A program made the translations under genes and the position numbers. Of a stretch of 64,000 nucleotides of DNA, positions 1-31,200 are shown piece by piece. The stretch lies in contig OX387202.1 of the NCBI GenBank assembly GCA_947561715.1, positions 4,725,001 through 4,789,000 of the forward strand. The letters run 5' to 3'. The notes under the pieces were generated by a model, which did not search any database, had not been told where the DNA came from, and saw only the letters and a program-made list of their open reading frames with translations. The stretch's first letter is position 1, and each line of letters begins with the position of its first letter. This DNA comes from Ascidia mentula (Eukaryota > Chordata > Ascidiacea > Phlebobranchia > Ascidiidae).

Positions 1-857
1 AATCAGGTAATTCTAAATCTGTAGTTTGACGAATTAGAGCAAAATGTGCCCCTATCTAAGTTGGAAAAACTAAGTAAAATATTAGTTCTACTCCAATTTG
101 CGGTTTTATCAAAACTGTTGATGTGTTCAACGCCTTTTTTATTCGGGACGATTTTTCACCAAAACCGGTGAATTGTATTTTCTAGTTTAAACAGCACGAA
201 ACTTTAAACTGAATTGTTTTTATGCTGGTAATTCTAATTTAAGAATAACCTTCTAATTTTTCATTTAATTTTAATTCTAATCTAATTTAAAAACGCCTCA
301 ATAAAACCATTGTTTACCCTTGCTTCTGCTTGTAGCTCGAAAATTACCTTTTAGTGCATGCATAGGCGTAGAGTTTTGCCCATCAACGGGGGTGCGGTGA
401 AGAAAAATTAATGCCGTTAGAAGGTCGTTTGCACGCTATAATATACAAGTTAAAGCGTCGTCTATGTTAACAATGTGTTTGGCCGACAAAAACTGGACGA
501 AGCCTGGTTTTCTTCCATCTACACGTTCGTCACCAACGTAATTGTAGGTCGCGAAACTGCGTGTTAAGTACTTTTATGAGTGTAATCAGAAAAGAAATGC
601 GCCTTCATCAAAGAAACGCGATGCGATTGTGTGCTTAAATTTAAAAAAAGGTTGGGGGTGCGCTGTACAAGCCGTACTCCAGGCCAGTGAGTGCATGTGT
701 TATTATTTAAATGGTTTTATGCATCACATAGCAATTTTTAGAAACATTATTTATTCTAGCTAACCATTTGCTTCGGAAAGTGTTAAAAAAATTGTTTATT
801 TTAATTGACTTTAGACTTGCTTATTTAGTACACAAGGAAAGTCTGTACAGCAACAAG
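1..857. other. Upstream region of SEC63
   Basis: No coding region is supported here. A 3' splice acceptor (pyrimidine-rich then CTAG) lies at 751-759, about 100 bases before the SEC63 ATG, so the mature 5' end may begin near 760 by cis- or trans-splicing. I see no clear TATA box and no recognisable repeat. Confidence 0.4.
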
Positions 858-5015: not shown

Positions 5016-7432
5016 TTATCCGAAGAAAGCTTGAACTCCAATGGAAATAAGGACCACGAAAACAACAAAAAGAACGATGATCCAGTTCCGTAACCCTGAG
5101 AACATGTAACTGAGGTGTAATGTACAGAACGCCATATGTAAGTGTAAGTGAAACCGTATCTGTAGCTTCAAATTTCGATGTTTTGCGTCCTTTGTTTATG
5201 TTTGGAACGTCATACCTGATAAGTTATTTGAAATCCTACGTAATATGTTGGATGTTTGAGGATTGTCTGGAACTTCTTCATTTGTGGATGCTTCTGTAAC
5301 TGAAATTTACAAGATTTTGAGGAATGCCATTTTCTTTCTCAAAAAACTTAGCATGGAAAAATAAATCTAATATTAGCTCCAGGTTGGACATGTCAGGTCT
5401 CATCAGTGCAGGTGGTGTTGCTTGCACCAGGTGCACTGATTCATTGATCGTATATCAGTGTATCTGGACAGAGACTATTCCACTTTGTTGCTCGTCGAAC
5501 CGTAAGGCACCAAACTAGGTATGAAGTACTGTAGTACATACTGTGGCCAAGCAACTGCTTGGGCCACCAATACTGTCGTCAGTCACCAGTTGCACTGATG
5601 ATACGGATAGGTCGAAACAGTGCATACCTGTCTGGAGCTTACTGATAATTATTGGTTCATTGCTTGTACTTCCTAATAGAATTGTGTCTACCCGTGGTTA
5701 CCAGTTTCTATGTTGGTTTGTTCACTTTGTGTTATTCCGTCCACCGTTTCACAAGTTGAGTCGGTGCCAGGGTGAACTCGTCCAGGCTCTGAAGGTTGAC
5801 GCTGGGTTTCTAAACCAGATTATTTCGTTTTTTTTGGTTTTAAAAATGGTAAATAGATATGGTCACTCATGCAAACATTGGTAGAGTGCATGGCTTTAGA
5901 ATAAATCTGTATTTTATGTTTGGAAAATTTGGTAGTTTAGTTGAGTTTAGAAAAAACAAACCTGAATCACTAATGCCGGGAATTGCGACGTCAACTTCCA
6001 CATCTCGGTGGTCCAAGTTTTGCGCAGAAGGATTTCCGTCACCCATCTCTGATTGAAAACACATATTTTTCTCGGCTATTTAAGAAGAACAAATTATCAA
6101 CAAACCTCCAAAAGTGTTCGTTTGCGTGGAATACAAAGAAAGAGGGTGGGTGTACATTTCTCGCTTGGGGCATTCTAAGCCCATTTCCTCAACAACAACA
6201 CGTCGTTGTTCATCGATAGTTTCTGTGTTTAGCTGTGCGAAAATTTTCTGCAACTTCTCGCTCGTTTCAGTCATGGTTGGTCGTTTTCTGGGATCTTGTT
6301 GCCAGCAGTTCATCATCATTTCTTCAAGCGAATCCACGATTGAAGTTTCATCGATGGTTAGAGTTGTTTTCAACGTTTGTATCTCGTTACAGTCCGGCCG
6401 GCCACCGCTTATGATGAAGTTTTTGAAGTCATCCTTGTTCGTTACTTGTGGCTCCCGGCGGGTTAGAAATATGTAGATTATCAACGCAAAACTATAAACA
6501 TCAAGTTGTTTATCGTCAACTAAAGTTGGGTCTTGCATTTTTTCCGGCGCACAAAAGTATGTGGCTAACTCAAACTCGTTCCCTTTGCTGCCACCAAGTG
6601 TGTCTAACTCACTAGCGCCAAAACTGATAAACTTGCAGGTCAGATTATGAGTAATCATGAACTGCTCTGTTGTAATGTTACCGTAAACCGAATTGTTAAG
6701 TTTTACAGTCTGGCGAAACGCAAGTGCTTTTGCCACATCAGTTAACAACTGAACCCGCAACGATACAGGTAGACGTACAGATTTGTTTGACAGAAGCCGT
6801 GTTAGGGTACCTCCATAACAATGTTCGACAACAACTCCTAATGATAATCCCCATTTGACCAATCCAAAGATACAAACGATGTTCTCATGTTTGCGTTCCT
6901 GGATCACTTTTAGATCGGAAATTAGTCTGAAAAACAAATAAAACAGGGGAATTCCCTCTTTGTAAATATGCATTGAAACTTATGGTCTTTACTTATTTTC
7001 CTTGGCCTTAAAATCATGAGTGTTTCCACTTCTTGAAACGACTTTAATGACGACAAATTTTTCAGATACTTGATCAATACCAAAAAGAATGTGTCTAACT
7101 AGCTTGCTTGATTCGCAATCGCATAAGATATTTTTCGGGTCGAACTCTTTTAACTGCATGACCACACAAACACTACGGATAATGCTGTAATAGCTGTTTC
7201 CTGGACTAGCCGCAATCGATTCTGTTGAATGCCTTAATTCGTCGTTGGAAATATTGTATTCGACTTGATTTTCCAGTGCGAGGCAAACATAATGGGTTTT
7301 AATACTTCTGCTGCCTCCAAACCACAACAACTTACAACTACTTTCATTGTCCATTGTGACGTAAACAATAAGTGGAATACATGCTTTGTTCAGTTGTTGA
7401 GTCTCTTTACACATTCTGTAAATTGATATCAT
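5016..7432 (-). CDS. Tail-anchored RIPK/TKL-like pseudokinase
   Basis: Proposed exons (minus): 7432-6993, 6926-6106, 6048-5962, 5809-5702, 5672-5628, 5299-5216, 5095-5016; 1665 nt, 554 residues, all phases closing. After a 115-residue N-terminal part with no domain I recognise comes a kinase fold. The beta-3 lysine is kept (VVIK, K130) and HENIV, CAPEK and DVYSF are clear. The catalytic loop HRD is replaced by YGN (228-230) and DFG by SFG (248-250), so phosphotransfer is unlikely. Four short exons follow, all phase 1-1, coding for a Ser/Thr/Glu-rich linker. The last exon ends in RNWIIVLFVVFVVLISIG, a hydrophobic helix a few residues from the stop, the layout of a tail anchor. Start is either M1 or M7 (7412-7414), the latter just after an acceptor-like TTTACAG. 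The family is inferred; further small exons may lie in 5300-5627. Confidence 0.7.
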
Positions 7433-9137
7433 TCTTTTGTTGGGAGCCGACAGAATGGCGACAAATTAACTTTTTTTCCCCAAAGGATACATTGGCTTAA
7501 ACTTACAGTTTACTGTTCAAATAGGGCTGAACGAAGAAAAGTGTGTGCATTATTTTAATATGACTATAGTTTTCACAAAAGCTGCATTTGTCTAAACAAA
7601 TATGCTTAGTAAATATGTCACTTCATGGAATGTGTAGATTGATCACAGTTCAAAGCAAGTAGCTAATTACCCATGCGCCAATATTAAATAGTCTTTGTGC
7701 CTTGAATCGTTTAGATAGACAACTCCCTAATTCTTTGGTGCGAAACACAGACAACTGAAATGAATCACATAAGGTTTGAAAGTTTAACGCAAATCGCTTG
7801 GCGCGCGCGGTTAAAAACATCCGTCGGTTTCAATGTTTACAAAACTTTGTAGGAAAGTCTTCAGATCACGAACGAAACTACTGTGGTTTCACATGCGTAA
7901 CTAACATGTGTGTTGTGGGTGCATGGCTTGGAAAATATGGTTTCGGTTGTGGAAAACGAAACTGTTGCTGATAAAAATAACTGTATGTCGGCATTGAAAA
8001 GTAATCAGCAGTTTTGATTTCTTTCTCGGTTTAGCTTCTAAAGTTTGAATATTTTTGCACGATAACTGGATCAACGCTTTCGGAACGTGACAGCTGAAAA
8101 TAGCTGTGTTAAAGGCAAGAACGACAAGTTCAATAATCCAAAGTTGCTTTTTGAAAATTGAGCTTTATGACTAATTGTTATATATGTATAACGTACATAG
8201 GCTATGATCTTGATGGCATATTGTAAGTATTAAGAACCGCTGGTATAAAGGATGTCTTCTCGGTTGCATCGTAACCGTTCCTGGTGAATTTGAAAATTTG
8301 AAAAGTGGAGAATACTTAGAACGACACAATGCGACCCGCGCGCCATTCAGCTTTTATCATGCATTCTAATTGACGTCAGAACTTTCAACCAAGGTGTACG
8401 TAAGCACTTCACAACGAAGGTATAGACAACCGTGACCAAAACATTTGCCTTTGCCCTCCATGTTTACGCAATACAATAACTTGACGTTTGTTAAACTTCG
8501 TGACAAAAGAGATGATTATTACGTAGCTATTGCTTCAAATATCAATCAGTTTTACATTTCAATTAATAGAACATTTGTATCTCTACCATATATAACATTA
8601 CATGTAAGATTATCTAATTTCGTAAAACACTAAATTAAGTCCTAATAATATAAAACTACAAAATAACTTCTTATACAAATAAACACAAATTTATTCTAAA
8701 CTTATCGGAAGCCCTTGTTTTAACTCGAAATTTATTCTTGGCGGTGGTGGATAGAGAGTAGCCGTATTCAAATTCTCGCGTCGTGCCGATCATTGCTATT
8801 AATAATCAACAACAATCGACTAAACTGTAGCTTAACGCAGCGTGCGACGCCGAGGCAGAAGTCTTGTCGTGTTGCAGGTCAATCTATAGTCATATAATGG
8901 TCGAAGACGTAGTGATTCGAAAGGTGGCGTTTGCGTTGCAATTTTGCTTTGCTTTTTTTCGTAAGTGGTTGCGTAATTTCGGGTTAGGATATTAAAGACG
9001 AGTCTCTTTTGATGTTCGGAGAATTAAAAAATTCAACTTACAGTAAGAAATTAACTGGTGGTCAGCAAACTTTGAGGACGGAACTTATTTAATTGATATC
9101 AACATTTCCAATATGCGCCTGATGCATTTTTCTTGTG

Positions 9138-10085: not shown

Positions 10086-12636
10086 ATGGCTGAAATTTCT
10101 ATGTTACCTGTTTCAACTTTCTATACAACCTACCCAAGAAACTTATTCCATAAAGATAAAAACGGCTTGCTTCATCACGATTCAAGTAAAGTCACAGTGT
10201 TTGGAGACATAGAAGATGTTTTCAGTGACAATCACCCAAGGTAAAGATTTAAACGATGTAAATTTGTAACAATATGTCATTCCCAGTGCGATTATGTCCA
10301 TCCCAGTGCGCCAACTACCTAAACATTCTTTTTGCAGAATTTTATATTTTGTACACGCAAAAAATTCCGAACACCAATATACGAAGTGCTGGTAGCACGC
10401 AAAAATAAATAGCCTATTACCATCTTAAATTGCGGTGCTGTTATTCGAAGAAATTTCCGAAACTAGAAAAATTCCACATGGTTATAATCACTCACGCCTG
10501 TCTATTTATAGCCACATTACGCTTGACGGATCATCAAATGACCTGAAGGCGTGGAAAACAGCTCTTATGGAGAAACCAATTGTGTTCTTAGTCACCATGA
10601 GCTTTGTGGATCCGGCAACAGATGCTTGCAGAGACACAGGTACACATACATGGGCAATGCTTACTTTATGTTTGTGATTAATTTGGGATATTTACCATGT
10701 CGCAGTCATTAACCGAATCACGCAAAATAAGTGTTTTTTATTGTTTAGATAACAATTGCCCATTATGCATAATGACGTAACAATAAAATGTTTACCTTCA
10801 AAGTTGGTTCCTTTGTCTCCTGAGTTTTCAACATGCTTGTCTTTCAACATAAGCTTGCGATTGTATATTTCGTTGTAAATGAAAGAACAAAAGAATTTAT
10901 TTACCAGACGATGTTAATTTCCTCGCGTTAAATGGCGATTTATTAAAAATAAGTGGGAAGATGTCTTCAAAAATAAATAAAGTATTTGTTGAAAATAAAC
11001 AAGCCATAAAAGTATGTGTAATAATTTTTTCAAAGTTTTTTAGAAAACACATCACAATGACTTGTTACATTGTCAATATTTTGCAGGTGAATATGTTGTG
11101 TTTATAAATTCCCTCGATACCTCCATGCAACATCAAATGCAAGAAGCCTTCGGTCGATGCGAGGGCATTCATAACGCACGGAAAAAGTTTAGTTTAAAAG
11201 TAAGTTTATAAATGATGAGATGGACTTTGTTTGTCCACTTAAAAATCAAGTAGTGTAACATTGGCATATAGTCGTTAAAACTAGATTAAAGGGTTAAACA
11301 AGCAAGAAATTGTACGCTTTAAAATCCTAATTTTTTAAAACTCACACCAAACGTTTTTATTTGTTTGCAGATTTCAATTCATAACATCTTGCGCAAGTGG
11401 TATGCAAACCAGCACCCAGACAACACCAGCAGTCGATGTGTGATAGAGGGTGGATCTGTGATCCTATCATCGTGGTCACGTGGGTGCGCAGATTGTGAAA
11501 GTCACCCCTTTCTAATTGGAGGTTGCCTTCCCGTGGCAATATTTTACGGCATTCCGTGTTTGGTATGTGATTCCAATAATACTTAACACAGTAAACATTG
11601 TGTATGCAACTACTTGCATCACAATATTGCAGACAGAGTTTCCTCTATAGTTTAGTCCGGCATATAAAACTGTGCTTGAAACTGGCCATGAGCTGCATGT
11701 TTCCTAAGGTAAAGATTGACTGGCCCGTGAACCCAAAACTTCCAAATAAAACGAAATGAATAGCCTTGACACTGCGCTACTGGTTATTTTATTAACAACG
11801 CAAAAAGTTGTGGTAATTAATATCTTGATTAAATAAATTTACTGGCGCGTTGACATCGGGGCAAAGGGCTTCCTGGGAAATTTGAAATTGAATTGCGGGG
11901 ATGCCATATTGCTTGTCATGCGATGAATCATCATCATAGTCTTATAGTTTTACAACTAACGGTTCTGTTATCAATACGTAGTGTTTTTTTAAGGGTATAT
12001 AATTTTTCATTTAGATTTACCGCGCTGTCAAACACAAGAAACTCAGACTCCAGTTGGAGAGTGCGGAATTCTCTCCAAATTCATCCTGTGCGGGTCAGGA
12101 TTCAGTTTTTGAAAGTTCGTCACAACTAGAAAGGCAATCAAATGAAAATGGCGCAACAACAAGTAAGACACCTTCTATGTTTGTTAAATTGGTTGTTTGT
12201 CTTTTGAAATCTATTTAAATGTGTACATTTATTCGCTCTTGCTATATGAAGACTTTTACTGCAGATAAACATTTCTCATCTGCGTGTATTTTTAATAAAT
12301 TCTACGTACTACTGAAAAATCCACGCACGAAAAAAAATTATAAATTTCTTTCAATAATCACGACAAAACTACATACAGTTTGTGGTAAAACTCCCAATAG
12401 TGTGTTGCTATAGTAAACATCACAACCTTAAAAAATGGGCTGTGAGTTTCGATACCCTGTACTTATATTGGAAATGTCGTCGGCTGTAACTCACAACACT
12501 CATATTTTTAGATGAAAGCAATATAACTTTCCTTCCAAATTGCATCAACTTTTTTAACGATGATCCACCTGCTTATGAAACATTGTCATATCCTTCACCA
12601 CCTCCCTATGAAGCTGCTGCAAACACAAATAACTGA
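10086..12636 (+). CDS. PPxY-tail membrane-associated protein, paralogue A
   Basis: Exons 10086-10240, 10512-10639, 11087-11199, 11371-11562, 12015-12162, 12512-12636; 286 residues, intron phases 2,1,0,0,1. I do not recognise the family. Exon 1 carries a basic/histidine stretch (LLHHDSSKVTVFGD). Exons 2-3 look alpha/beta and include EYVVFIN. Exon 4 has RKWYANQ, a Cys-x-x-Cys pair and a hydrophobic segment GGCLPVAIFYGIP, followed in exon 5 by IYRAVKHK, which suggests a membrane hairpin or one membrane pass. Exon 6 is a low-complexity tail with two PPxY motifs (PPAYE and PPPYE), ligands for WW domains such as those of Nedd4-type ubiquitin ligases. A 3' acceptor (CATGCAG) precedes the ATG by about 30 bases. 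AATAAA lies at 12684-12689. It pairs with paralogue B as one subfamily. Confidence 0.85.
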
Positions 12637-14261
12637 AGAATTTTTTATATTTTTGTTTGTTTTTTCAGCGTGTTTTTTTTATAAATAAACAATGGTCTAC
12701 AGACTACTTGTATACCACATTGAGAGGTAAAGGAATGCTTGTAAATAATGCCACAGGCTTAAGCTTGGCTTGCACAAAAATGTTGTTGCAAACGACAAGT
12801 TTTCCGACTTTGAAACCCTCCACACTACAATTCTTTTGTATATCACATAGACTCGATTTGTCAATTTTCTTAATTTCTAGTAACATAGTTTTGTAGCAAA
12901 TAAACATAACGGAAACACTCCCAGCATAAATTACCTCCAAGGCTTTTCTTGAGCCTGTTAAGTGTTTATTTGTTGCATAATATTTCGAACTAAAAGATCG
13001 GATAATGCATTGCTTGCATCTCTCATGCAATATCATTTAAACGTCACAATAGCAAGTAATTACGCAAAGCAATGGCTGAGCAACCCGAACAACGCAAAGT
13101 GTTTGCGTTTTCAGTGTAATTCATGACGCTTTTATGACGTATATAAAAGTTTTTATGAGAACATAATGGAATAATGCGTGCGCAACAAGTTTTATGTGTC
13201 ATATTTTTTGTTTCAAAAGTTGTACAGACTGCCTTGGTGCCGATAGTTTGTTGCAATTAACATTTCACCAACAACAAACGGAAATCGGTATAAAAATTTC
13301 GAAGAGCATCATGTTGGCGATGACTCACGCAACGATTGTGTCGTCACAAACATGAGTATGTGGTGAAACTACGGGGGGAAGTAACCCTACTTTCTGAGGG
13401 GGGGGCGTTTCAAAAATTTTTCCCTAGGCAAACGTCCCCGAAACACAACCGCAAAATGTGTTACCTTTTGAATTACCTTTTTGTTTGCTCGTTAATGTTG
13501 AATTTATCAACCTGATCACTCAAAAAAGGATACATTTGCAAACACTGTAAACTGCCTACGCCAAATGAGAGTAACTATTAGTTCTTTTTTTCACAAAAGC
13601 GTCCCAGCGTAATTAAACTTAAAATGTACACACGTTTAGCCAAACACATGATAATAACCAAATTTATGCGAGAAAATGCAAATACAACTTATGAGGCAAA
13701 ATGTGGTTCATTGCAAAATTTATTCACTGAAGCCAAGCTAAATCAATAGTTTTGTTTGGCTGAAATTTACGTCATCCGTTAAATTCGGAATAGTTACAAC
13801 AAGCAACAGCAAGCGGTTCTTGCTCCAACGTGAGTCAATTCACGCACAACATGCCGAATGGTGACTATACCAATGTTTCTTGCCAACATACCAGTGGTCG
13901 CACGCACTTTCGGTTGCCCAAATACTGTATAAAAGCGCAACGCGGTTAAGCAAGCTCCATACATATGCTGAAATACTATTGTTAGCTTAGTTCGTTTGCG
14001 TTTGTATATTTTCAATGCTAATTGTGACGTAAAAAGAAAGAAATGGAAATGTCATTTAATCAGTAGTGTACAAGCCTGGTGGATTGTTTGTATTGTTATT
14101 TCGTCAAAGAAATTATATAAAGAAGTATTAAAAATGTTTTCAATCATTCGATTGGTTTATGTGGGAAGGTTAAAAGTACTGTTACTGAGTGTCTTGTACA
14201 AAACTGAAATGAACTAAATTTCTGTAGCTTTTACAGGTTGGCAAAAAACATAAGCTTAAAC
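12637..14261. other. Spacer between paralogues A and B
   Basis: Holds the 3' UTR of paralogue A and the 5' flank of paralogue B, with an acceptor-like TTTTACAG at 14230-14237. A G-rich run occurs near 13398. Open frames on either strand show no protein-like features. Confidence 0.4.
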
Positions 14262-16390
14262 ATGAGTGAAATAGTTGTGTCCTTACTTTCCACTTTCAAT
14301 GCCACTTACCCCCGCAGCTACTTCTACAAAGATGAGAACGGTTTGTTTCACTACGATTCAAGCAAAGTCACAGTGTTCGGTGACCTTGAAGATATCTTTT
14401 ACGACAATTATCCGAGGTATGCGTTGTAATTGGCAATTTTGTTATTCATTTCTGAGTAATTTATATTTGAGCATTGGTCGCTTGTGAAAGTAAATAAAAA
14501 TGTTCAAATTTCAAGGTAAGAATGTCCTTAGCATGGGAAATTCATTGCATTGTATCCTGTAGGTTTCAATTATCCATTCATGAAATTAAACAGCTTTTTT
14601 CTGTGTTTCAGTCACGTAAAATTGGAAAATTCATCAGAGTGTTTAAACCACTGGAAGAAGACTCTCACAGAAAAACCCCTCGTGTTTCTGGTCAGCATTT
14701 GCAGAGTGGACGCCGCCACTGAAACGTGCAGAAGTAGAGGTATTAAGTCACTGTGCAAAATTTGTGTAAGAAGATCTCGCGTTCCAAACAAGCATAACTT
14801 ATAGTAGATCTAAGTCTACACTGATAAAAGCTTTGGCGTTCAATTTTTATTCAGTTATTCAGACACAAAATGTCTTTGTGACGAAAAATCTTGTAATTCT
14901 ACAAATACATGTCAATCCTAATTGAACGCATTGAGTTGACACAAAACATTTACAAATGCCAGTTTAAATACCGGGACTGGAATATAACAAAACTTGTTGC
15001 TTTTCTTCAGGCGAATATGTTGTGTTCATTAAGTCACCCCACGTCGTTCTGCGATCACAAATTCTCGAAGCTTTTTGTCAATGTGAAAATTTTCGAACTA
15101 AAGGAAAAAAGTTCAGTTTGAATGTAAGAGAAAATGATTATTTTCTTATTTTAAGCTTGTTTTAATCTAGACCTTTTTGTCGCTTGGCACTATTTTACCC
15201 CCACTGTATTACTAAGTTAACATTATTTATTTTGAAAGATATCACAATCTTTACCCACATATTTCATATTTTTACACTTGCATAAAAACCTTTATTGTCA
15301 GTTATGCTTTCAAACACAATTAACTTTACGAATTGTATATATCAGCATGCAGTTACCACCAAAAAACAATTTAACTTGTGAAAATCGTTTTACATAACAA
15401 ACCCTATTAAGCACTTATACTTTTTTTCCCAGATTTCAGTCCAACGTATCTTGCATAAATGGTATGCAAGCCATTTCCCTCGAAACATGGGATACAGCAT
15501 CATACAGGGAGCTTCTGTCACGTTTTCCACATGGTCGAAAACAGCAAGTGATTGCGTCACCCACCCCTTATTTTGGGGGGGTTGTCTTCCGTTGGCGATT
15601 TTTTGTGGTGTTCCATATTTTGTAAGTTATTATGGAAAATTTAGGCGTTTTCAATCAGGAATTTATACATTCACTGTGAGTGAATGCAATACCATATGCT
15701 TAAAATATGTACAGTTCCTATTGTAAACATACAGTTTTTTTTAAATTAATGACGTGTATTTACAGTTTAAACAAAATTATTAGTTACAATATCGCCCACC
15801 ACCACCGTTATACAGCAACACTTTTCCTATTGTTCAGATCTATCGCGCCGCTAAACACAAAAATGTGAATGTGGAACTGGAATTTGCCGAGGTGGTTGAC
15901 GCTACTCTAAATTTAAGCATGTCGGGCAGTATGGATGTTTTTCTTGAATCGATTCGAAGTGCTGAGGCAAGGAGGGGAGCCGCCGACCTTTTCGGTGAGT
16001 CAAAATATTTTTTTAAGTGATTCCACTCAGATGAAAATTACCATTTCAGTTGATAAAGTTAGTTTGCTATTTACTAGAGGCAGTGCAAACTTTGTTTCTC
16101 GCTGGTCCGTAGCCTATAGCAAGTGGGTCAATTGAAATCAACATACAATCTTAAAACACTGCCATACGACAAATAATTTGCGATAAATTTTGCCGCTAAT
16201 ATTCTCAAATTTTTTAAACTTTAATCCACACTGACAAAATCTTTTTTATTGTACATTTGCAGATGCAACCAACGTTCTACTTCGGAGCGCGTATAACAAC
16301 AATCCATTAAACGAAAGCCCGCCCGCATACGAAACTTTGTCTGAATCTTTACCGCCACCATACGACTTCGTTGTCGGAGAAACATCGTAA
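14262..16390 (+). CDS. PPxY-tail membrane-associated protein, paralogue B
   Basis: Exons 14262-14416, 14612-14739, 15011-15123, 15433-15621, 15838-15994, 16263-16390; 289 residues. Exons 1-3 have exactly the lengths seen in paralogue A (155, 128, 113), and the intron phases are identical. Conserved blocks include HYDSSKVTVFGD, EYVVFIK, HKWYAS, GGCLPLAIFCGVPY and IYRAAKHK. The tail again carries two PPxY motifs (PPAYE and PPPYD), and both A and B contain an ETLS spacer between them. Function is unknown. By motif, it is a candidate membrane-bound adaptor for a WW-domain protein. An acceptor TTTTACAG stands about 24 bases before the ATG, so the message could be trans-spliced. Confidence 0.85.
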
Positions 16391-17074
16391 AAAAATGAGA
16401 TATGCAAAAACTTGAGGATTTTTTTCAGCGTAATGCCTTTCTTTTTTATTTTTCTGCAAATGTTAAATTAATGACTTTTCTACCTCGTATATGCAAGTGC
16501 ACACTTATAGTCACCCGATTATTGCAATCAGGGTCAAGACGGTGTAAAATTATTTCGTGTTCCTTCTGTAAATGTGAGTCTCCTTAATTTGTTGCAAAAA
16601 GGTGTATTTGATTTTTTGTATTTTAAACAAATGAAATGATTTCAAGATTGTCCTACAGTCTGTTTCAAGTATTTTAAAGTCTGCAAGCTCGATTGACTCA
16701 TGTGCTGTTTATTATTCGGCCTTACTTTAATAACATCAGCCAGTCCCACGTAAAGGTCTCACATGGCCAACAGAACCAACAAGAGAGAGCCCACAGCTGA
16801 CGTGTCTGGCGGGCACGGAAACATAAACCAATCACAACTAACTGGAAGCTTTGGTTCTTATAGGCCTATACTCACGCTATATATCGTTACTAGAGATAAC
16901 TCGACCGGAGATTTCTTTTATTTCCCATCTTGGTTTGAAATCTGAAAGATATTGAAAAAATTGCCATGAGTCTAAATCAGTTGTTCTCCGCCACCAGCTG
17001 CGCTGATCGTTGTGTGGGTCCACTATACAGTAAAAGCTAATAAGCCCTGTGCCCCCTGCTTATCCATCGTTCGG

Positions 17075-17200
17075 TGGACCACAGAGGTCCTGTTCTTTTT
17101 TTGACCAAACCGGGATTTAAACCCTTATGGCCTCGAAGCCCGATCAAGTTTTCTTCTTGGTATACGGGTCAGGGGCTTGACCAATGCTGCCAATCACCCG
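17075..17200 (-). repeat. tRNA-like or SINE-like fragment
   Basis: On the minus strand the sequence contains a degenerate B-box (GGGTTTAAATCCCGGT) in a tRNA-like setting, but no complete cloverleaf is apparent. It is probably a decayed tRNA-derived repeat. Confidence 0.35.
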
Positions 17201-17256
17201 CCTGTAGAGGCCCAGTTCACTGTTGAAAAACCCCATGGACTTAATAAGTTTGGCGT

Positions 17257-17500
17257 CTGTCATCGGAAAATACTACTACAGCGGGTCACAAAGTTTTCGC
17301 CAAACCTGATTCACATATCTGTGCAAAATTGAAAACTTTTCGAGTATTAAATGGTTAGATGTGACCAGGACAACCACCTGTTATTTTAGGTTATATATTT
17401 GAATTGAAATACTACATTAAACTACGGCGTTTGTAGTCGCACAGATTTTTATGTTACATATGCATGGATCAAGTCGGACCAAAACTTGTTGACTCAGTTC
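17257..17500. repeat. Dispersed inverted-repeat element, copy 1
   Basis: Closely matches 53610-53830 over more than 200 bases, including GTTATATATTTGAATT and CACAGATTT. The ends are inverted: GTCACAAAGTTTTCG near 17285 and, on the reverse strand, GAGTCAACAAGTTTTGG ending near 17496. This is a short non-coding element, probably a MITE. Confidence 0.7.
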
Positions 17501-18121
17501 AAGAGTATCTCCCTCTTTATTATCCATAGAAATGTTTCTCCAACGTTAAAAAATTATGACGCGAATCGCTGCAGCTCGTCGCTTTGGAGAAAAAAATGAT
17601 GAAAGGAAAAAAGCCGAAACCATAATAACTTAATACGATTCTAAGCTATTTGGGACCAAACTTGGGTACTGTTGTACGTTTTTCGTGTCTTTTAACAATT
17701 GACGCATGGCATCTTTGTCACATTTAAGTATAAATAACCGAGCTAAAGATACTTAGGTGACTACATCATTCATAAATGATACATTGTGATTGCCTCAGGC
17801 ATTTCTATCCTGTTTTATACATTTAGGCGTCACATCATGTGGTTCCTCTTCAAGTTGATGTCCCGATGTTTATGGCTTAGGTTTTGCTGACTTGCTGTGT
17901 CATAACTTGAAAATTTTAAATTAGTTTGAGACAACAGACAAACACTTTATTTTTCATTTGTAATTGCTGACATAGCGTATGCAAGTCAAAGTTTTTTTAG
18001 GGTTTAATTAAAATGTAGCGTAGTTAGTGGCAGTGTAGCCATTTTTAAATATCAATAAATTGTTTTACTACATGAAATATACATAACCAGCAGCACTTCT
18101 TTCATGTGACACAAGTTAACC

Positions 18122-18250
18122 TTCAATTCAATTTTAAATGTTACTAGATAAATAAGAACTGAAGATGCTTTAATAAAAAGCGAAACATGTTTTCTAAAAC
18201 CAGAAGCGTGGACACAAAGTTGTTATAGTAACATTTAAAATTCATTTTGA
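18122..18250 (+). repeat. Foldback element with hammerhead-like core
   Basis: AATTTTAAATGTTACTA near 18130 and its inverse TAGTAACATTTAAAATT near 18226 bracket the element. Inside, 18159-18186 reads CTGAAGATG, a GCTTT/AAAGC hairpin, then GAAAC. The same arrangement recurs in other elements of this window. Confidence 0.6.
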
Positions 18251-18386
18251 AATATATTAGAAACTAATTCATTCACACAGTAGGTGTAATAAGCATTTAC
18301 TAGGAAATGATGAATTTCTACTTTTAATTTACTGCAGATTGTGTATTTACCTTTAAAATTTCTGCGATTTTGCACTTCCTTCCATA

Positions 18387-21300
18387 ATGTCTGTTACGAC
18401 TGGAAGTCAAGGTGAACCAGTCCAGATTGGTGTGACTTTGTTGGAAAGATTTATGGAATGTTCCCCTCAGCACTTCCAGACTGGACCTGATGGCAAACTT
18501 CACCATGATCCACGCAAAGTGAACGTATTTTCCCATGATAGGAAAGTGTTTGCGGACACATATGGAGAGTAAGTCGATGTCATTTGTATGTGACTGATAA
18601 CCAGTATGTATTTAGGGATGCTTTGAAGAACTACAGCAATATGTTTTTTTTAAATTGTTACTGATGTTGCCAGGCTTGTTTATGTTACACAACATTGTCC
18701 ACATTGCTTGATTTACATGTCATACCTCATGATAAAGGCAGCTGCATAACATAACAGAAACATCGATAAAATAAAGTTTGCCAGAAGATTAGTATTCACC
18801 ATAGGCTATGACTAAATTGCCAATTTTAGACTTGGAAACATAAAACAAACCAGAGTTAGGCAAAAACATTAAGTAATCTAAGTCAGATCCATAAAAATCT
18901 GTCTGCGTATGTATGTATGGATCACTGTCACTTTATTTACTGCATAACACCACATAATGTGAAATAATAAATAATCATTACAGGAGTGTTTAATGTTGCT
19001 TTTGTTAAGGGAACTTAAACTCGATGATCCGTCTGAGTTTGCGATGATTAAGCATCGACTTCTCACCCAACCAACATTTTTACAAGTTGTCTTGAAAAAG
19101 GAGAAGAAATCTGGGAACACAAGATACATCACACGGGGTATGTTTGCTTTGCCCTGGTTGAACTATGTATTGTGTTTCGATTGTATTTTGTATTATAATA
19201 TATACAGAGTTTGGTGAAATATTGGCAACCAACCAAAATATAATTTAAAAGAAAAATGCTTAAGTACTGCTGTCTCAGAAATGTTTGTATCTAGGGCCGT
19301 TCAGGCTTTTTTAAGCAGTCTTAAATGTAATCAGTGTTCAAAAATTCTGCGAGTAATTGAGTTTCGTGTAAATATGGTCACTTTTAACAGACTATCTGGT
19401 TTTCCTAAGTTGTAGTTAAGTACAACACAGATGATGAATACAGTGTGTTTTGAACATTTGCTTCTCATCCTTTGGTCTTCTTGTTCAGTGTTGTTGTTGG
19501 GTTTTGCAATTCTGTTGAATTTTGTAACAGGTAACTTTGTGATATACCTCAACAACACACATCCCTTCATACAACAACAATTACGAGATAAATTGGATGA
19601 ATGTGAACATCTCCTTTCCAGAAACAAGAACTTTGCACTTGAGGTATGTCTAAATTCTGACACTGGTTTTCTTGGAAGGATCATTTGCATTTATAAATCC
19701 TCAGTGCTATCAATGACAATTGTTATGTATATTTAATAATTTATTTGAATAAGAAAAACTGTTGGGGATAAAAATACAATTAATTGATTATTCATAGATT
19801 TGGGAAATAGATTTGCCTTTTCCTGCATAGTAAAATCAGTGCTGTTTATTTTACTCAAAATCGCTTAACTTCATATTATTTATTGCACTAAAATATTTGA
19901 CAAATATGTTGGTCTGTCATGACCCAGTTAAACGTGAAAGCATTAATTTTGACACAACGAGACAGAATGAAATACACATATTAGCATTCAACCAAATTAT
20001 CAGTTGTATTTAAAATATAAGACTTCTCAGTATCTGTTATGTTAAAAGATGGCAAATAAAACGTTGGTTATATATGTTTAAACAAAATTCACTTATCGGG
20101 TAATTTAAAAGCACCGCGCTTGCCCAGGACAGCATTCCTCAGTATTATTTCAGTGACCCAAACATGTTGCAAACAACAGTTGACCATGGCCCAAATCTTT
20201 TACTGACTATACTTTCTGATTCCAACAATGATTAACGCATTGGGGTTGATATACTAGCAAGTTATTTTCTTGTGCACACATTTTGGTTTTGCAAAGTATA
20301 GTTTATGAAAGCCAACTAAGGGTTTCCATGTAAGTTGTTGATAATAATCTGGAACTAAGTCTTTGGTGATGAAGTGTTCATGGAATGATTATGTATGGAG
20401 TAATCTGCTCGGTGAATTATACTCACATGTCTGTTTTGGATGATTGTAAGCAAATGCATTACTGTTCTAATTATTAACTCACAGACAACAAAAAATATAA
20501 TTCCTGTCTTTTTGTATGAGGAGAGTTTTGTGTGTGTGTTAATAATTCTGTTTCCATGCAAAACATCTTGGTCATATGTTCAAAAAAGTATCAATATTGT
20601 CTGAGTATATTTATCAAACACATGCAAACCACTTCAAAAATAAACAGAACAATTATTATGGTCATTGCCAATGTTGAAAGGAAAGCATTTGTTTATAATT
20701 AAGACCTTGTGTTTAGATTGATCTTGGACCAGCTTTAAAGGCTTGGTACAAGACAAGGTTTGCTCATATGTCTGGATCTTATTCTGCCGATGGCTCCAAT
20801 TTCTGTATCACAAACTACAGTCAGAAATGTCATTTATGTTACAACCCAATTATGTGGATTGGTTGCCTTCCATTCATGCTTGTTCTCGGACCTCCATATT
20901 GTGTAAGTATGCTCATTTATATTTCTGAGTACAATGAAATTCATTCTGTAATTTACAAACTTCATGTCAAATATTGAACTTTTCGATCTGTGAAAAGCAA
21001 AAATAACTTTTACTACATCGGCGAGGCATATACAATATTATTACCGGTTGTCTACTTTATTGTGTGTTTTTTGTATATAAATAGCTTGTTTTCCAAATTC
21101 CAAAATCTTCTGCAGTACCTGAGGATCTGTCTAGTGTGACAGAGTTCTAGCGGAACTCAGTTTGAGAAACAATTTTTTATGACATAGTCCTAGCATTTTG
21201 TCAGAGATTCACTGCAAGACTAAATTAAGTTTTTTGTGCAAAATATAAAGAATTTTGTGTTATCATGTGAGTTATCTTTTGAAAATCTTTTGTTAGATTT

Positions 21301-21977
21301 TCAGAGCAGCAAAGGTGAACGACCTTGACTGTCCTGTTCGTGCCAATGTCACCTATCTTGAGGGTGTGAGTCCTGCAGAGCGCCACCAACTGGCCGTAAT
21401 GCTTGCGCAGGCTTACGTACGTGGGCTGAATGCTGGAAATGCAATGCAAACAGGTTTGCCAATAAACATTAATTTTAAGACATGAACTTACTGAAGTAAG
21501 TTAAGAAACTCCTGTATATGTGCATTGATCTTGTAATTGCTTTGTTACCCAATTGGAAAATGACAACTTTACCAATGAAAATCCAGAGACACTTAGATTA
21601 ATTGTAGGATTTTTTCCAGATACATTTGCATTAAAATAGATATCTTTTCCCCCTTATTCTATTGACAGTAAGTTAAAATAAAAGAGCTTCCTAAAATGCA
21701 ACATATAAGGTAATAATAAAAGTATTGCTATTATTGAAAGTCTGAAGTAAGGACATATTTTTAACATGCCAAACTCTCAAATTTAAAACATAATGCACAA
21801 TTTAAACGTTAGAAGTTACACACTATATCTCATCCCTCAGTTCACAAACTGCTTTATTCCGGTGTCACTGTATACAACTTTCTTGTGTAGTGATTATACT
21901 GTTTCATATTTGCAGCGCCAGCTATGCCTCCACCGTATTCAGATAACCCTCCACCACCAGCATATGGTCAAATATGA
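18387..21977 (+). CDS. PPxY-tail membrane-associated protein, paralogue C
   Basis: Exons 18387-18568, 19010-19137, 19531-19643, 20717-20902, 21297-21453, 21916-21977; 275 residues, phases 2,1,0,0,1 as in A and B. Exon 1 is longer and carries GKLHHDPRKVNVF, the counterpart of the LLHHDSSKVTVF block of A. Exon 3 keeps FVIYLNN and DECE. Exon 4 keeps LKAWYKTRF, a CHLC pair and the hydrophobic WIGCLPFMLVLGPPY. Exon 5 begins IFRAAK and ends in an alanine-rich helix-like stretch. The tail has PPPYS and PPAYG, two WW-domain ligands. AATAAA lies at 23026-23031. Function unknown; it forms a second subfamily with paralogue D. Confidence 0.85.
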
Positions 21978-23457
21978 AACCGTGTCTACTTTTCAGTATT
22001 ATTGATGTCTTGAATATTCTCTTTACCAATATGCCTTTCATGGAAACCTAATTTAAAATTTAAACAAGAAAGCCAAAGCCAATATGCTGCTATACATTAT
22101 GTGGAAATGTTTTAAACATGACTGCTTCCATCATCATTGCAATTTGAGAAATCCAAGAGAGCGTCAGAGTTGAGCGTGTTGTTATGTTGCTTGTCTTCCC
22201 CAGCGCTCGCTTGGTTGCATTCTTATATTGCACTGGCGATGGACGCAGTCGTGTTCGAAACCTTTGCACATAATGTATAGCAGCATATTAACTTTGGCTT
22301 TCTTGTTTAATTAATAAACTCCAGGTTTTTTGCACCGAAGTACATTTGGAAATGCTTTAAACATTGTTAAAGGCACCTTTGAACTTAATAGCTTAAGGGT
22401 ATTTGGAAATTTCGATGTAACCACAGTTACTTTAAATTTGTCACATCAATTTGTTTGTATATTTTCCAACATGTGTTTAAAGTGCATGTAAACAGCCAGG
22501 CAATGTTAGTAACACAAGTCTTTGCAGAATCACTTACTGTATAAAACTGTCTTCTTCGCAAGGATTTTGTAAATACTCTATATCTTTGCCATTTAGTGGT
22601 ATTGGAGTGCATATTAATTCATTGATTGGAGATCCTCATGCAATTGTTTGCATAATAGATTTGTTCACTTATTCTGTGCATTTGTATTTGTCTGTCTCTT
22701 TCCAAGCTTTGTGTTCCAAAGCATCACATTGTTTCCATGTTTCTGTTAATTCTTTTACTTTATCATTTTTTGCAAAGCAAACACATATCTCAAAAACACT
22801 TTGAATTATGATCTTTTAGCTGCCAATGTTAGTGCATTTTGTGCCCAAATGGAATCCCAAGATATTCATAGGAAAAAAGTATTTGTCTGTTTTTTTCACA
22901 AGTTTCATTATTTTTTATGTCTAAAGTGCCCGTGTTTTTCTGAGTACAAATTTCCTTTTTTGAAATGTAAATATTGTTGTGTACCAAACTTGCAATTCAA
23001 TGTTGTACTTTTGCTTTTCCTAATCAATAAAACCTTAACGCAATACAAAGGCTTTGACAGGTAACAGTTCGAACTTTATTTTACATTTACAGTTGATATG
23101 TTTTGTGGTATTTGCACATCAATAAAGGTTCTGGTTTTGGCAGAATATAAGGCATTTTGTTTAATATCCGCCCGAAGAACCGAAACTGATGACGGTGCGT
23201 ACATACACGTTTATTCCTAAATATAAAACGACTGTCCGGACATGTTAGGGAATTGATCACGCTTAACATGGGTTTTCCCGATGCGAGGTAGCAAGAAAAC
23301 ACATGACCACTAAATACATATTTGCTCCCACGTAACTCTTGTACAAACACTGTACAGATAAACATACTGAGGTTTCGAGTTGGTCGTCAACTTGCTATAA
23401 AGCAGACAGCAGTAGTAAAAATTACGTATTTTCAAGTTTTGTTGTAGTTTAGTCGTG
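21978..23457. other. Spacer between paralogues C and D
   Basis: Holds the 3' UTR of paralogue C with an inverted-repeat element (22061-22309) inside it, and the short 5' flank of paralogue D with an acceptor-like TTGTTGTAG near 23441-23449. No other gene is seen. Confidence 0.45.
22061..22309 (+). mobile_element. MITE-like element with about 43-bp inverted ends
   Basis: The left arm starts TAAACAAGAAAGCCAAAGCC and the right arm (22267-22309) is its near-complete inverse, reading CACATAATGTATAGCAGC then ending TTTCTTGTTTA. Inside, 22236-22261 shows GCGATG, a hairpin-like GACGC/GTGTT, then CGAAAC. The termini resemble those of the smaller element at 63645-63767. It lies in the 3' UTR region of paralogue C. 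Confidence 0.75.
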
Positions 23458-25661
23458 ATGTCAATAGCCCCTGGAAACAGAGGCCAACAGATCGAGGTTG
23501 GCGTGACGTTGCTTGATAGATTTTTAAAATGCTCCTCTCAGCATTTTAAACCTGGGCAAGATGGCAAACTTCACCATGATCCACGCAAAGCCAATGTTTT
23601 TGCCCACGATAATCAAGTATTTGCAGATACATATGGAGAGTAAGTTTACCAACTCATCTATTTCTGCAATCTTGTTTTAATATTTCGTGAAACTATAACG
23701 ACCCATGGTCAAAGCACATATTTCGACCAATTAAGAGCTTGATCGACTTGGGAAAAGTTTTGGTGGCCATAATAAGCGTCTCTACAGCACTTGGTTATTA
23801 TATTTCCAATCAATAATTCTTGTCAAACTTGCTTGCAAACATACGAATTGCTCAAGTTACCATGATGCCCGGCCACATTTGTTACGTCTATATTGATATC
23901 TTGCAATCATAAAAACCCAACCAAAAGCATTTACTACAAAAAAAGGCCTTCTCCAACACATATAGCTAATGCTCCAATGCTAACTGTTCTTTAACTTTAA
24001 GAAATATTTGTGCGTTTCAAGGGAATTGAAAATAACAAATGTATCAGAATTTGAGACAATAAAGCAAAGACTTCTGACTGTACCAACTTATCTTCATGTT
24101 GTGTTGAAAAAAAAGGAGAGAGTTTTAAATGGATGGCACATTACAACAGGTATGCAAAAAAAACTTTTGTCAAATTTTCAGTTGGTCAATATATTTGCCA
24201 ATTTTTAGCAAAAAGTTTTGCCGGAATCTTGATGGCCCAAAACATATTTTTTACAGGTAAATTTGTGATGTATATCAACAGCACCAATCCTGCCATACAG
24301 CAACAATTAAAAGATAAACTGGATGAATGTGAACAGTCCCTTGCTGCTGGAAAAAGCTTTGCACTAGAGGTGATGTTGTGCAACCTGTTTTAAGTTTTTC
24401 AAGATAAGCAGAATTGTAAAACCATTTTTTTGTAAGAACTAAAAACCATAAGATAAATAAACTTAAATGGGAATAGTATTTAGTTCCTGCAATAATTAAA
24501 AATTAAGCACAACATTATGCTCCCATATGGTGAGCTGAATGAAACATTACTGCTTACCATATGTGCAACAATAGCTTATATTTCTGATTGTGTTTTTAGA
24601 TTAATCTTGGACCATTGCTGAAATGTTGGTATAAATCAAGGTTTAAAGATAATTTTCATACAAATTACACCGTTACTGGTTCCAAATTCTGCATAACAAA
24701 CTCCAGCAAGAAATGTGATTTATGTTTCAATCCGGCCATGTGGATATTTTGTCTGCCCATTATGCTTGTTTTTGGAATTCCATACCGTGTAAGTGCTGTT
24801 TATGACTGAATCCTTTAACTAAAGCAGAATCATTTGATGAAAAAAACCTTGAAGACAGTGACAGGAACTTTTATTGTCCAAAAGAAATTTACGAAAATTT
24901 TCTCCACCAATTCAAACAACTTTGAAACCAGCAATTTTAACAATGCTAGACCAAATTATATACTACATGTTTTTTATAAAAAAATATTTTTCTTTTCAGC
25001 AATTTTTTGAAGATTTGACTAATGCAACACTAAATTTGTTGAATATTGTTTTTGTAATTGGTATAGTTTATCAAAATCCTTAATAATTAAGGTTAAACAT
25101 TATAAAATGATATTTTTGTCAGAGAAGCCTTGTAAGATAAGTTCACAAACACATTTATGCACTCATTTACATTGAAAATAGTTTCCACTCTGCTGGTGTA
25201 CATGTTGTGCCGGTAAAGATTTTCTGCAAATCTTTGTGCAGATATTCAGAGCAGAACATATGGACGACCTTCAATGTGAAGTTCATGCGAAAGTTTCCTA
25301 TCTTGAAGGGGTGAGCCAAGCTAAACTTCGTCAATTTGCTGCCATCGTTGCAGAAGCTTATGCTCATGGAGTGAATGCTGGAAGCTCAAGACAAGCAGGT
25401 ATGAAATCAAAACTATCTTACTCTCACAAAAATGTGACACAAGATAAAATAACAGTAACAAATAAATTTCAAACGCACTGATTAAAACATAGTTATTTGA
25501 CCCTATTGTTTGTAACATTGCTTCATTCTGATTAGTTTTCAGTTTGTATATGATGCAACTCCAAGCAATGTGTTTTCTTGGTTAAAGCAAATTATGTTAA
25601 TTTTGCATCAACAGCACAAGCCATACCTCCACCTTATTCAGCCTTCCCCACCAACCAGTAA
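23458..25661 (+). CDS. PPxY-tail membrane-associated protein, paralogue D
   Basis: Exons 23458-23639, 24022-24149, 24257-24369, 24600-24788, 25242-25398, 25615-25661; 271 residues with the family's intron phases. It is closest to paralogue C: GKLHHDPRKANVF in exon 1, FVMYINS and DECEQ in exon 3, LKCWYKSRF, CDLC and FCLPIMLVFGIPYR in exon 4, IFRAEHMDDL in exon 5. The tail is the shortest of the four and keeps only one PPxY (PPPYS). Introns 2 and 3 are much shorter than in C. AATAAA lies at 25825-25830. Function unknown; by motif, a likely WW-domain partner at a membrane. Confidence 0.85.
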
Positions 25662-28236: not shown

Positions 28237-31200
28237 CTAAAATACACCCAGCAACAACATCGCAGTAGCTAGAATCACAACCGATGCTAAAAACAACTCG
28301 TTGTCCTCGGGATTGACTTCCTTCAGCTTTTCGTTCAAGATTTCTGCAAATCAAGGAGCAATAAGTTATTGGTTGTTACACATTCGGCGAAATCACAGTA
28401 CTTTTATTAAACACTTTTTTGTTGATAAGTAGGCTACGAAAATCAATGAATTCTTAGGGGCACAGATCACGGATTTCCTCATAATTCTGAGTATAAAGAG
28501 ACTGGCCCATACATATTGTTATTAACATTGTCATGTTTAAAAGAAAACGTTTCGGCAAAACCTTATGCCATCATCAGTTTGAATGATGCGGTTGGTTGGT
28601 ATAGCTCCTGATAGATTTTTCATTGACCGCAAGTGCCGTCGATCTTTTCAAATGTTTCTTTCCACATGAAAAAGTTTTTCCACACGAAAAAATTTGAGAA
28701 CCACTGATTTCAATTGTTACGCGGCGCCCTTGGAAACTCAATCGCACCAGGGCATCGTCGCGCACAGTTCGAGAACCTCGGGTTTAAATATATACCTGAA
28801 CTACTGTGGTAAATTTCCATCCAAGTGCACTTAGTACACAAAGTTAAGATAGGTTGCAAACTGACCATCTCAGGACAAGATCCTGTTGAATTTTGACAGA
28901 TGGTGACGTCACAATGAAGATAGATCGCTTGTTGGTCGTCTGTGACGTTTGTCCACACGAAAGTTTCGAGTTTAAAGCTTGCGTTATTTGTCTGGTAGTT
29001 TCGAATCACCATCTTCCTGTTTGGACCTTCATTGTCAGTAGATGGCGCTGCGCATCTGAATTCACGATAAATGGGGGTTTGTATTCTTATCTACTATCGA
29101 GGGTTAGACTCCATCACTGCAGTAGATGCAAGTATGAATCCAGACAACCAAACTAAAATCCTCAAAACAGTAAAAGTATATCGAATTCAGAACACGACTA
29201 AATGAACGTGTTAGTTTGAAACTAGAAATATTAATGTTCTCACCCAGCTTCAATGATAGGATATGAGAGTGAGTCAGCAGAGTCCTCTACGTGTGTAGCC
29301 CAACAATCCTCTGCCTTTTAACACGTATTATTATTCATCAAGCAAAAGCTTTTTGTAAAAAAAAATAAGTGGGTGCAGTTGCTAACCTGGACGATAAAAT
29401 CTGTTTCCAGTTCTGGAATTCCATTCATTTTAACCACAGCAAAGATATAGTTGTGGGACGATTATTGGAGAGCTTTCATCCACTGGCTCACTGAATCCCT
29501 CGTCACTGTAGACGTTCAATGAAACATTAAACTCACCAGATATAAAACCACCATCCACTTCTATTTCACTGCAAATAACATATAATGGTTAGGCTAAGGA
29601 ACATCAACAACAGATTTACTCATAATTTGTAGAATGAAGAGACTGGCCCACACTGCAGAAAACAATACAAAAATGTCACAATGTTTTATGCAATATTGGT
29701 CAGTATCTTCATTCTCAGAATTATGGTTAGTTTTTTATAAAAAAATATTCCACAACCAGTAATGGTGTCATGTGGTACACGTGATCTGTAGCCTTAACCA
29801 ATCAAAGCAAAGCAAAACAAAACTACACATTTTCATCTGGAAAACGAAGCAAAACATTTTGTACTTTCGTAAAAGTAGTGAATAGAGGGGGAATGCTCAA
29901 TGCATACAATGTCTTTAACATTGACAATCCCGATACTCACTTTATTGCAGGTTGAACAACTTCTGACAAGAGATTGTAATTTGCAGTGAAGTTACAAGTC
30001 ATACTGATGCTGTGTGAAACGTATCGTTGAATTGCTTTGGAAGAATCCATTGCTTTGGCGTCACGAACGATGAACGTAAAGATCAGATGGTCGTCTCGTG
30101 TCTAAAATGAAAATAATAAATAAATACCCGGGCTGGTTTGAACGTTAAGCGTGTATTTTTATACGTGTAAATTGTCCTGCTTTGGCACTCTTTGAGAAGA
30201 CTGACTTTTATATTATAACGTAGACGACGATGCCGCAAGAACAAACTAATGTACTCGTTTCATCGTGTCTATTTTCTTCACCCGAATTTGCGCCTGTTTT
30301 TTCTATCACTTTGTCATTCACACCTGATGAAGCGAGGGTTACTCGCGAGAGCTCGTGTACGTTATAATATAAAAGTCAGTCTTCTCAAGGAATCAATTGT
30401 TTTATTTTGGAAACTTTTTCAACGCGTGTATATTTCTTATTTTTCAACAACACACATACCTCGTATATGAATTCACATCGCGTCAAGTTGAAGCGAAATA
30501 TCGGTGCAGCATCGTTAGTTTTGCATTTGTCTGGTACTCATCAAGGTTGGTTTTATGTTCGGAACTGATGTAAAGAACATCACCACTCTCGTATGTAAGT
30601 CTCGCCAGATTGTCCTGACTTCGAATTCTAAATGTCATGAATTTAAAAAAATATTTGCCCAACTATCTTTTCTGGATCGCGAAATGGGCAAAATACACCC
30701 TTCTTATCCAATTTTATGTAAAGTGGATAGAGACACTTAAACTTATTTTAGGAAAAACACACGTTAACATGTTGACATTTTGGCAATAACTTGTGCCATG
30801 GTAATAACTAATGCGAAAACATGACGACATTTTGGCATCTATTGTTTTCTGCATACTGTGCCACGACCCTTTATCATCTGTATATTATCAAGTAAATTAT
30901 ACACACGGTATAACCCTGTTGATTCTTTCGTAAACGTGCTAAAGTCGAAATGAACAATGAGTCATATTCACAATCCTAGCGTGTGTTCATACGATGTAAC
31001 TGACACATTGCAGTCATTAATCACATTATGTTTAAAAAATCAATCATTTCTTACGTTATCTCAATCTCTTCTTCGCATTTAATCCCCGTGATGTTCTCCG
31101 GAACAATTACAGAACCTGAATCAGACAAAAAAGACATCTAAAAAAATTGAACAAAAGATAAAAAAGGGGACAAACTTAGATAAGTTTTATTCGCACCAAC

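Follow-up and report, generated by a model that had tools for sequence, protein, structure and literature searches.

A constrained ascidian gene family with PPxY tails and a single hydrophobic segment: candidate membrane adaptors for Nedd4-type ubiquitin ligases

We describe a gene family of the ascidian Ascidia mentula that, judging from sequence, is fitted by no named family in Pfam, NCBIfam, PHROGs or the PDB. Four of its members, here called A to D, form a tandem array within a stretch of 64,000 nucleotides of contig OX387202.1 (positions 4,725,001 to 4,789,000 of the forward strand; hereafter the window), and a further two, E and F, are diverged paralogues located on the same contig, about 9.7 Mb from the array. 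PPxY motifs bind WW domains of Nedd4-type ubiquitin ligases, and motifs of this type appear to be selectively retained in the tails of the family. We tentatively read these proteins as cytosolic membrane-hairpin adaptors recruiting such ligases, a predicted topology, WW binding and function being part of what we infer.

The four genes of the array were rebuilt as spliced models, in window coordinates:

10086..12636, + strand: gene A, 286 amino acids; exons 10086-10240, 10512-10639, 11087-11199, 11371-11562, 12015-12162, 12512-12636
14262..16390, + strand: gene B, 289 amino acids; exons 14262-14416, 14612-14739, 15011-15123, 15433-15621, 15838-15994, 16263-16390
18387..21977, + strand: gene C, 275 amino acids; exons 18387-18568, 19010-19137, 19531-19643, 20717-20902, 21297-21453, 21916-21977
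23458..25661, + strand: gene D, 271 amino acids; exons 23458-23639, 24022-24149, 24257-24369, 24600-24788, 25242-25398, 25615-25661

All 20 introns are GT-AG and the intron phases run 2,1,0,0,1 in each of the four genes. Exon 2 measures 128 nucleotides and exon 3 113 nucleotides throughout, while exon 5 has 157 nucleotides in B, C and D and 148 in A; the coding sequence of gene B, 870 nucleotides long, ends at 16390. Because exon boundaries were set by eye at GT/AG sites, the GT-AG ends are in part a criterion of the models; this does not apply to the common phases, lengths and open frames. The rebuilt models agree with the original prediction, which had placed four same-strand genes of six exons, with these phases and exon lengths, in 10086..25661. 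No further copy of the family was found elsewhere in the window, where six matches outside the model exons all had E values above 1.

The array is made of two pairs. In BLASTP comparisons, identity is 49% between A and B, 60% between C and D, and 25-29% across pairs. For C and D, nonsynonymous divergence (dN) is 0.28 and synonymous divergence (dS) 1.13, a ratio of about 0.24, and the pair looks to be under purifying selection; for A and B, dN is 0.44 and dS is saturated. At the DNA level, C and D resemble each other in exons 1, 3, 4 and 5, and A and B in exon 1 only, if one sets aside an intergenic inverted repeat and the stretch over which the compared flanks overlap. In exon 1, 33 of 51 residues are identical between A and B, and the N-terminal domain is well conserved. 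We take A to D to be real, constrained genes on the strength of these comparisons. Directly downstream of gene C, at window 22052-22318, lies an inverted repeat resembling a miniature inverted-repeat transposable element (99-nucleotide arms, 84% complementary, 69-nucleotide loop).

Further members were sought with C, A and E as queries in the genome from which the window comes (195.8 Mb, 79 contigs). One locus, at 14.490-14.496 Mb of the array's own contig (C70 in the coordinates below), was detected with C and missed with A:

C70:14492752-14490431, minus strand: gene E, seven exons in the model, in frame
C70:14495879-14493566, minus strand: gene F, partial model, 3' part not joined in frame

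The first four introns of gene E have phases 2,1,0,0, and its model ends ...LPSYEEPPPSYSEV... Gene F has an exon 1 of 182 nucleotides and an exon 3 of 113 nucleotides, and further downstream QPPSYEDALAES stands in a candidate tail exon. The model falls out of frame at the junction after exon 2, and the 3' part with the tail exon is not linked to the rest in frame; we cannot say from this model if gene F is intact. With E as query, no seventh gene was found in the genome, and three other matches were weak (C1:6810883, E value 0.028, five stops; C1:21827459, E value 0.26; C70:11110513, E value 0.115). The four genes of the original prediction are real, but their array is not the whole family, of which six genes were found. 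Near copies of one stretch (AGCTGCAGACAGATGGCCACTGTTTCGACCTAAAAGGTCTCATCAGTGCAGC), probably a mobile element, were seen by eye inside an intron of E and beyond the candidate tail exon of F.

Alignment of the six members leaves a limited set of invariant columns: in the numbering of C, these are M1, F22, F30, D41, K44, F48, F55, K75, L78, P82, V87, Q120, E129, F138, L140, I142, L148 and W151, followed by C191, P193 and R206 at the hydrophobic segment. The C-x-P motif within that segment is kept in 6/6 members, as had been claimed for the array. A His/Asp block, a WY motif and an upstream Cys pair, also announced as common to all, vary once E and F are added: HHD reads HYD in B, RHD in E and HQD in F, E has WF in place of WY, and the first cysteine of the C..C pair is absent in B and E, as are both in F.

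Proteins A to E each contain one strongly hydrophobic segment, with a Kyte-Doolittle mean over 19 residues of 1.73-2.12, the next best 19-mer reaching 0.82-1.16. A proline stands near the middle of this segment, and the N-terminus is without strong hydrophobicity. In the array, the segments with C-L-P are located as follows:

11509..11562, running on into exon 5, + strand: gene A, mean 2.12
15568..15621, running on into exon 5, + strand: gene B, mean 1.75
20849..20902, running on into exon 5, + strand: gene C, mean 1.73
24723..24779, + strand: gene D, mean 1.91

Hydropathy thus suggests membrane insertion of A to E. The structure model made for exon 4 by itself (62 amino acids, four rows) shows a helix, a beta hairpin, a strand and a helix, at a predicted local distance difference test score (pLDDT) of 63.

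PPxY motifs close all five in-frame models (A to E), and one occurs in the candidate tail exon of F. The tail announced for the four genes of the array is thus present in each, and in E as well. Two motifs of the PY type, at a spacing of 7 to 11 residues, are found in each of A, B, C and E, and a single one in D and in the candidate exon of F. Their positions in the array are:

12565..12609, + strand: gene A, PPAY (12565-12576) and PPPY (12598-12609), in a block conserved with B
16319..16363, + strand: gene B, PPAY (16319-16330) and PPPY (16352-16363), in a block conserved with A
21927..21965, + strand: gene C, PPPY (21927-21938) and PPAY (21954-21965)
25626..25637, + strand: gene D, single PPPY

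Exon 6 is poorly conserved between A and B (15/41 residues identical overall), yet the PPxY residues match at eight of eight positions (hypergeometric P 6.7e-5). The block PPAYETLS+PPPY, picked after looking, is identical at 12/12 positions, versus 3/29 elsewhere in the exon (P 5.8e-8). From these comparisons, PPxY is selectively retained in the tails.

The original prediction matched these proteins to no named family, and our search for a refuting match in Pfam, NCBIfam, PHROGs and the PDB returned none that is convincing. Pfam was scanned with A to D and E at E values up to 5, a range in which HMMER filters drop most matches above 0.1. The best matches were to MLANA (PF14991), in the tail regions of A and B (E values 0.0055 and 0.0039; 17.4 and 17.9 bits, against a cut-off of 27 bits); three others on A to D had E values of 0.1 to 0.2, and protein E gave nothing. 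NCBIfam and PHROGs showed nothing common to more than one of the four array members, their weak matches being O-ClC in NCBIfam (E value 0.0024, one of the four members) and one in PHROGs at 0.034. In the PDB, haptoglobin was matched by C (0.046), triosephosphate isomerase by A (0.06), and CDC123 by A (0.65) and by a six-row profile (0.18). The human immunodeficiency virus protein gp120 was matched by a four-sequence profile against the PDB at an E value of 6.8e-5 and by a six-sequence profile at 5.4e-3, and was absent at E values up to 10 with C or A as single queries. At that threshold the matches comprised 228 distinct sequences, and the best 60 of 228 are all Env; we dismiss the match as a chance similarity multiplied by the many near-identical entries. 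A prokaryotic or viral origin found no backing either: 53 and 38 pattern-matched stretches were retrieved from viral, bacterial and archaeal collections, which say nothing on the distribution of the family in animals, and none was confirmed by tblastn. Literature queries on PPxY in ascidians or Ciona, on the tunicate PY motif with WW, and on ascidian tandem families revealed no such family in titles or abstract openings, which is no proof of its being unpublished.

Possible partners of the tails exist in the same genome, where exon matches number 38 for WW and 70 for HECT. Reading the two tables by eye, we noted four places at which WW and HECT matches share a strand and lie no more than about 10 kb apart, WW preceding HECT, the Nedd4 order; these are candidate WW-plus-HECT genes:

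C67:2.519-2.523 Mb: WW and HECT matches
C67:9.804-9.813 Mb: WW and HECT matches
C70:15.794-15.804 Mb: WW and HECT matches
C70:8.497-8.502 Mb: WW and HECT matches

For many WW matches, no HECT match is found nearby. At C2:987586-1037767, on the minus strand, are four tandem copies of an apparent gene that codes for two or more WW domains (LPDGWEVRVDKK.., ..FYFVDHNTRTTTWKDPR) and includes a long exon (277-310 codons); no HECT match lies nearby, and the two WW exons are ascribed to one gene by proximity only. This locally expanded WW family could be a partner of the PPxY tails.

How might such proteins work? In the model that we favor, an intracellular protein whose start is not signal-peptide-like would begin with a domain of some 140 residues at its N-terminus, which we read from the sequence as alpha/beta, followed by the helix and beta hairpin of the low-confidence exon 4 model. 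The short hydrophobic segment, interrupted by C-x-P and ending in an arginine, both invariant, would come next and most likely form a monotopic membrane hairpin, and a poorly conserved linker would lead to the one or two PPxY-type motifs, both termini being cytosolic. The monotopic reading is the best one for a protein that has no signal peptide, a single proline-broken segment and a tail that needs the cytosol to meet WW domains. The N-terminal domain would select cargo or a membrane site, and the tail, by docking on a Nedd4-type HECT ligase at its WW domains, would bring that ligase to the endosomal or plasma membrane; the close motif pairs of A, B, C and E may help to release its autoinhibition.

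The conserved PPxY, the single hydrophobic segment, the excess of dS over dN in C/D and the WW-HECT candidates together suggest such a role. They also support in part the reading of the original prediction, which proposed membrane adaptors for ubiquitylation or trafficking. Several observations weigh against it. When whole proteins are shuffled, 1.9-7.0% of the shuffles contain a PPxY by chance, and when the last 30 residues of each protein are shuffled among themselves, 2.6-12% do; the motif being this short and this frequent, our argument rests on its conservation and not on its presence. Moreover, the paralogues share ancestry, so that its occurrences are not independent, D has a single motif, and the candidate tail exon of F is not linked in frame. 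Hydropathy by itself cannot discriminate between a membrane hairpin, a single span and a helix buried in the core, and Foldseek, run with the weak exon 4 model, found no fold match (best E value 1.3).

An adaptor is nevertheless the most likely reading, ahead of a ligase substrate and of a scaffold for WW proteins that lack HECT. For Melan-A, PPxY-linked ubiquitylation and delivery to lysosomes or related organelles have been reported, and the tails considered here may likewise mark the proteins themselves for this fate. The MLANA matches of A and B speak for such substrates, but they are under the cut-off and limited to the tail with PPAYE..LS..PPPY, leaving the rest of the protein without match, and adaptors bear the same motif; we regard this alternative as unlikely. 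We would give a similarly low rank to tails serving a YAP-, WWOX- or MAGI-like protein, or the C2 four-copy WW array, which would make the family scaffolds or Hippo regulators. The many WW matches without HECT nearby, including the four apparent double-WW gene copies at C2:0.988-1.038 Mb, are consistent with this idea, but nothing connects the WW array with the PPxY array, and close PPxY pairs at a membrane suit Nedd4-type adaptors equally well. Less probable again is a soluble intracellular protein, for example an enzyme or signaling domain, in which the hydrophobic segment would be a core helix and PPxY a regulatory degron. In favor of this are the shortness of the segment, about 19 residues with an internal proline, and the well conserved N-terminal domain; against it, the mean hydropathy, which reaches 2.1, and the basic end of the segment suit membrane insertion. 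Furthermore, the His of HHD varies, and the invariant polar residues of the N-terminal domain are only D41, K44, K75, Q120 and E129, matched to no known active site.

If the family does consist of adaptors, it would be one more family to have arrived independently, by convergence, at recruiting Nedd4-type ligases to membranes through PPxY, and six natural variants in one genome would be at hand to probe what the N-terminal domain contributes and what the PPxY number does. If its members are only substrates or scaffolds, they would still represent a constrained, uncharacterized gene family outside Pfam recognition. As a far-fetched extension of the adaptor model, monotopic adaptors of undescribed fold, encoded in two clusters on one chromosome, might have paired PPxY tails that co-evolve with the equally expanded four-copy double-WW array on another contig, forming a lineage-made adaptor/reader system for membrane-protein sorting.

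Other genes were recognized around the array. The Pfam scan of neighboring open reading frames (ORFs) covered 10 of the 65 listed.

Window 732-3059, + strand: SEC63-like gene, a single open frame with DnaJ and Sec63 Brl domains
Window 6080-6979, minus strand: ORF with a protein-kinase domain (PF07714, E value 1.3e-21)
Window 6989-7465, minus strand: further ORF, no Pfam match at E values up to 0.01
Window 28713-29090, minus strand: exon with a ZP-C domain (E value 3.5e-8)
Window 41770-42873, + strand: DnaJ-type chaperone gene, DnaJ domain and zinc-finger-like CxxCxGxG repeats

The presence of a DnaJ gene in the window led us to consider the Botryllus fuhc genes. PMC12065747 describes HSP40L as closely related to DNAJC21 and BHF as having disordered regions, and from these descriptions we see no link.

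Several known proteins invite comparison. The tails of A and B resemble the tail profile of Melan-A (MART-1), a small single-span protein; however, the tail alone matches, below the Pfam cut-off, and C, D and E have no MLANA match. CYYR1 and the alpha-arrestins are other folds that converged on PPxY-mediated use of Nedd4-type ligases, and the Pfam scan of A to E found no domain in common with them. The same holds for ENTREP/FAM189A2 and TMEM127, which share no Pfam domain with the family; ENTREP binds ITCH via PPxY and activates it (PMC8811627).

Closer in architecture are NDFIP1 and NDFIP2, membrane proteins with several PPxY-type motifs that recruit and activate Nedd4-type ligases. Several PY motifs of NDFIP2 are needed to disinhibit WWP2 (PMC12720080). 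Ndfips have three transmembrane segments (PMC8811627), whereas each of A to E has one hydrophobic 19-mer above 1.7, and there is no sequence match. LITAF (SIMPLE) and CDIP1 provide the other likeness. LITAF has a short hydrophobic segment beside cysteines together with PPxY motifs, two of which bind Itch and relocate it to lysosomes (PMC3033906), and LITAF and CDIP1 are monotopic, with both ends of LITAF cytosolic (PMC5095921), the topology that we propose here. Unlike in LITAF, the cysteines are not on both sides of the segment: the upstream pair is not kept in B, E and F, and there is no conserved downstream pair. PPxY is N-terminal in LITAF but stands at the C terminus, behind a large N-terminal domain, in this family, and the LITAF domain has no Pfam match in A to E at E values up to 5. 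By these sequence features the family is not Ndfip, having one hydrophobic segment, nor LITAF-domain, given the missing Pfam match and the Cys pattern, nor Melan-A, which it resembles in the tail only; by analogy, it may nonetheless work like LITAF or Ndfip.

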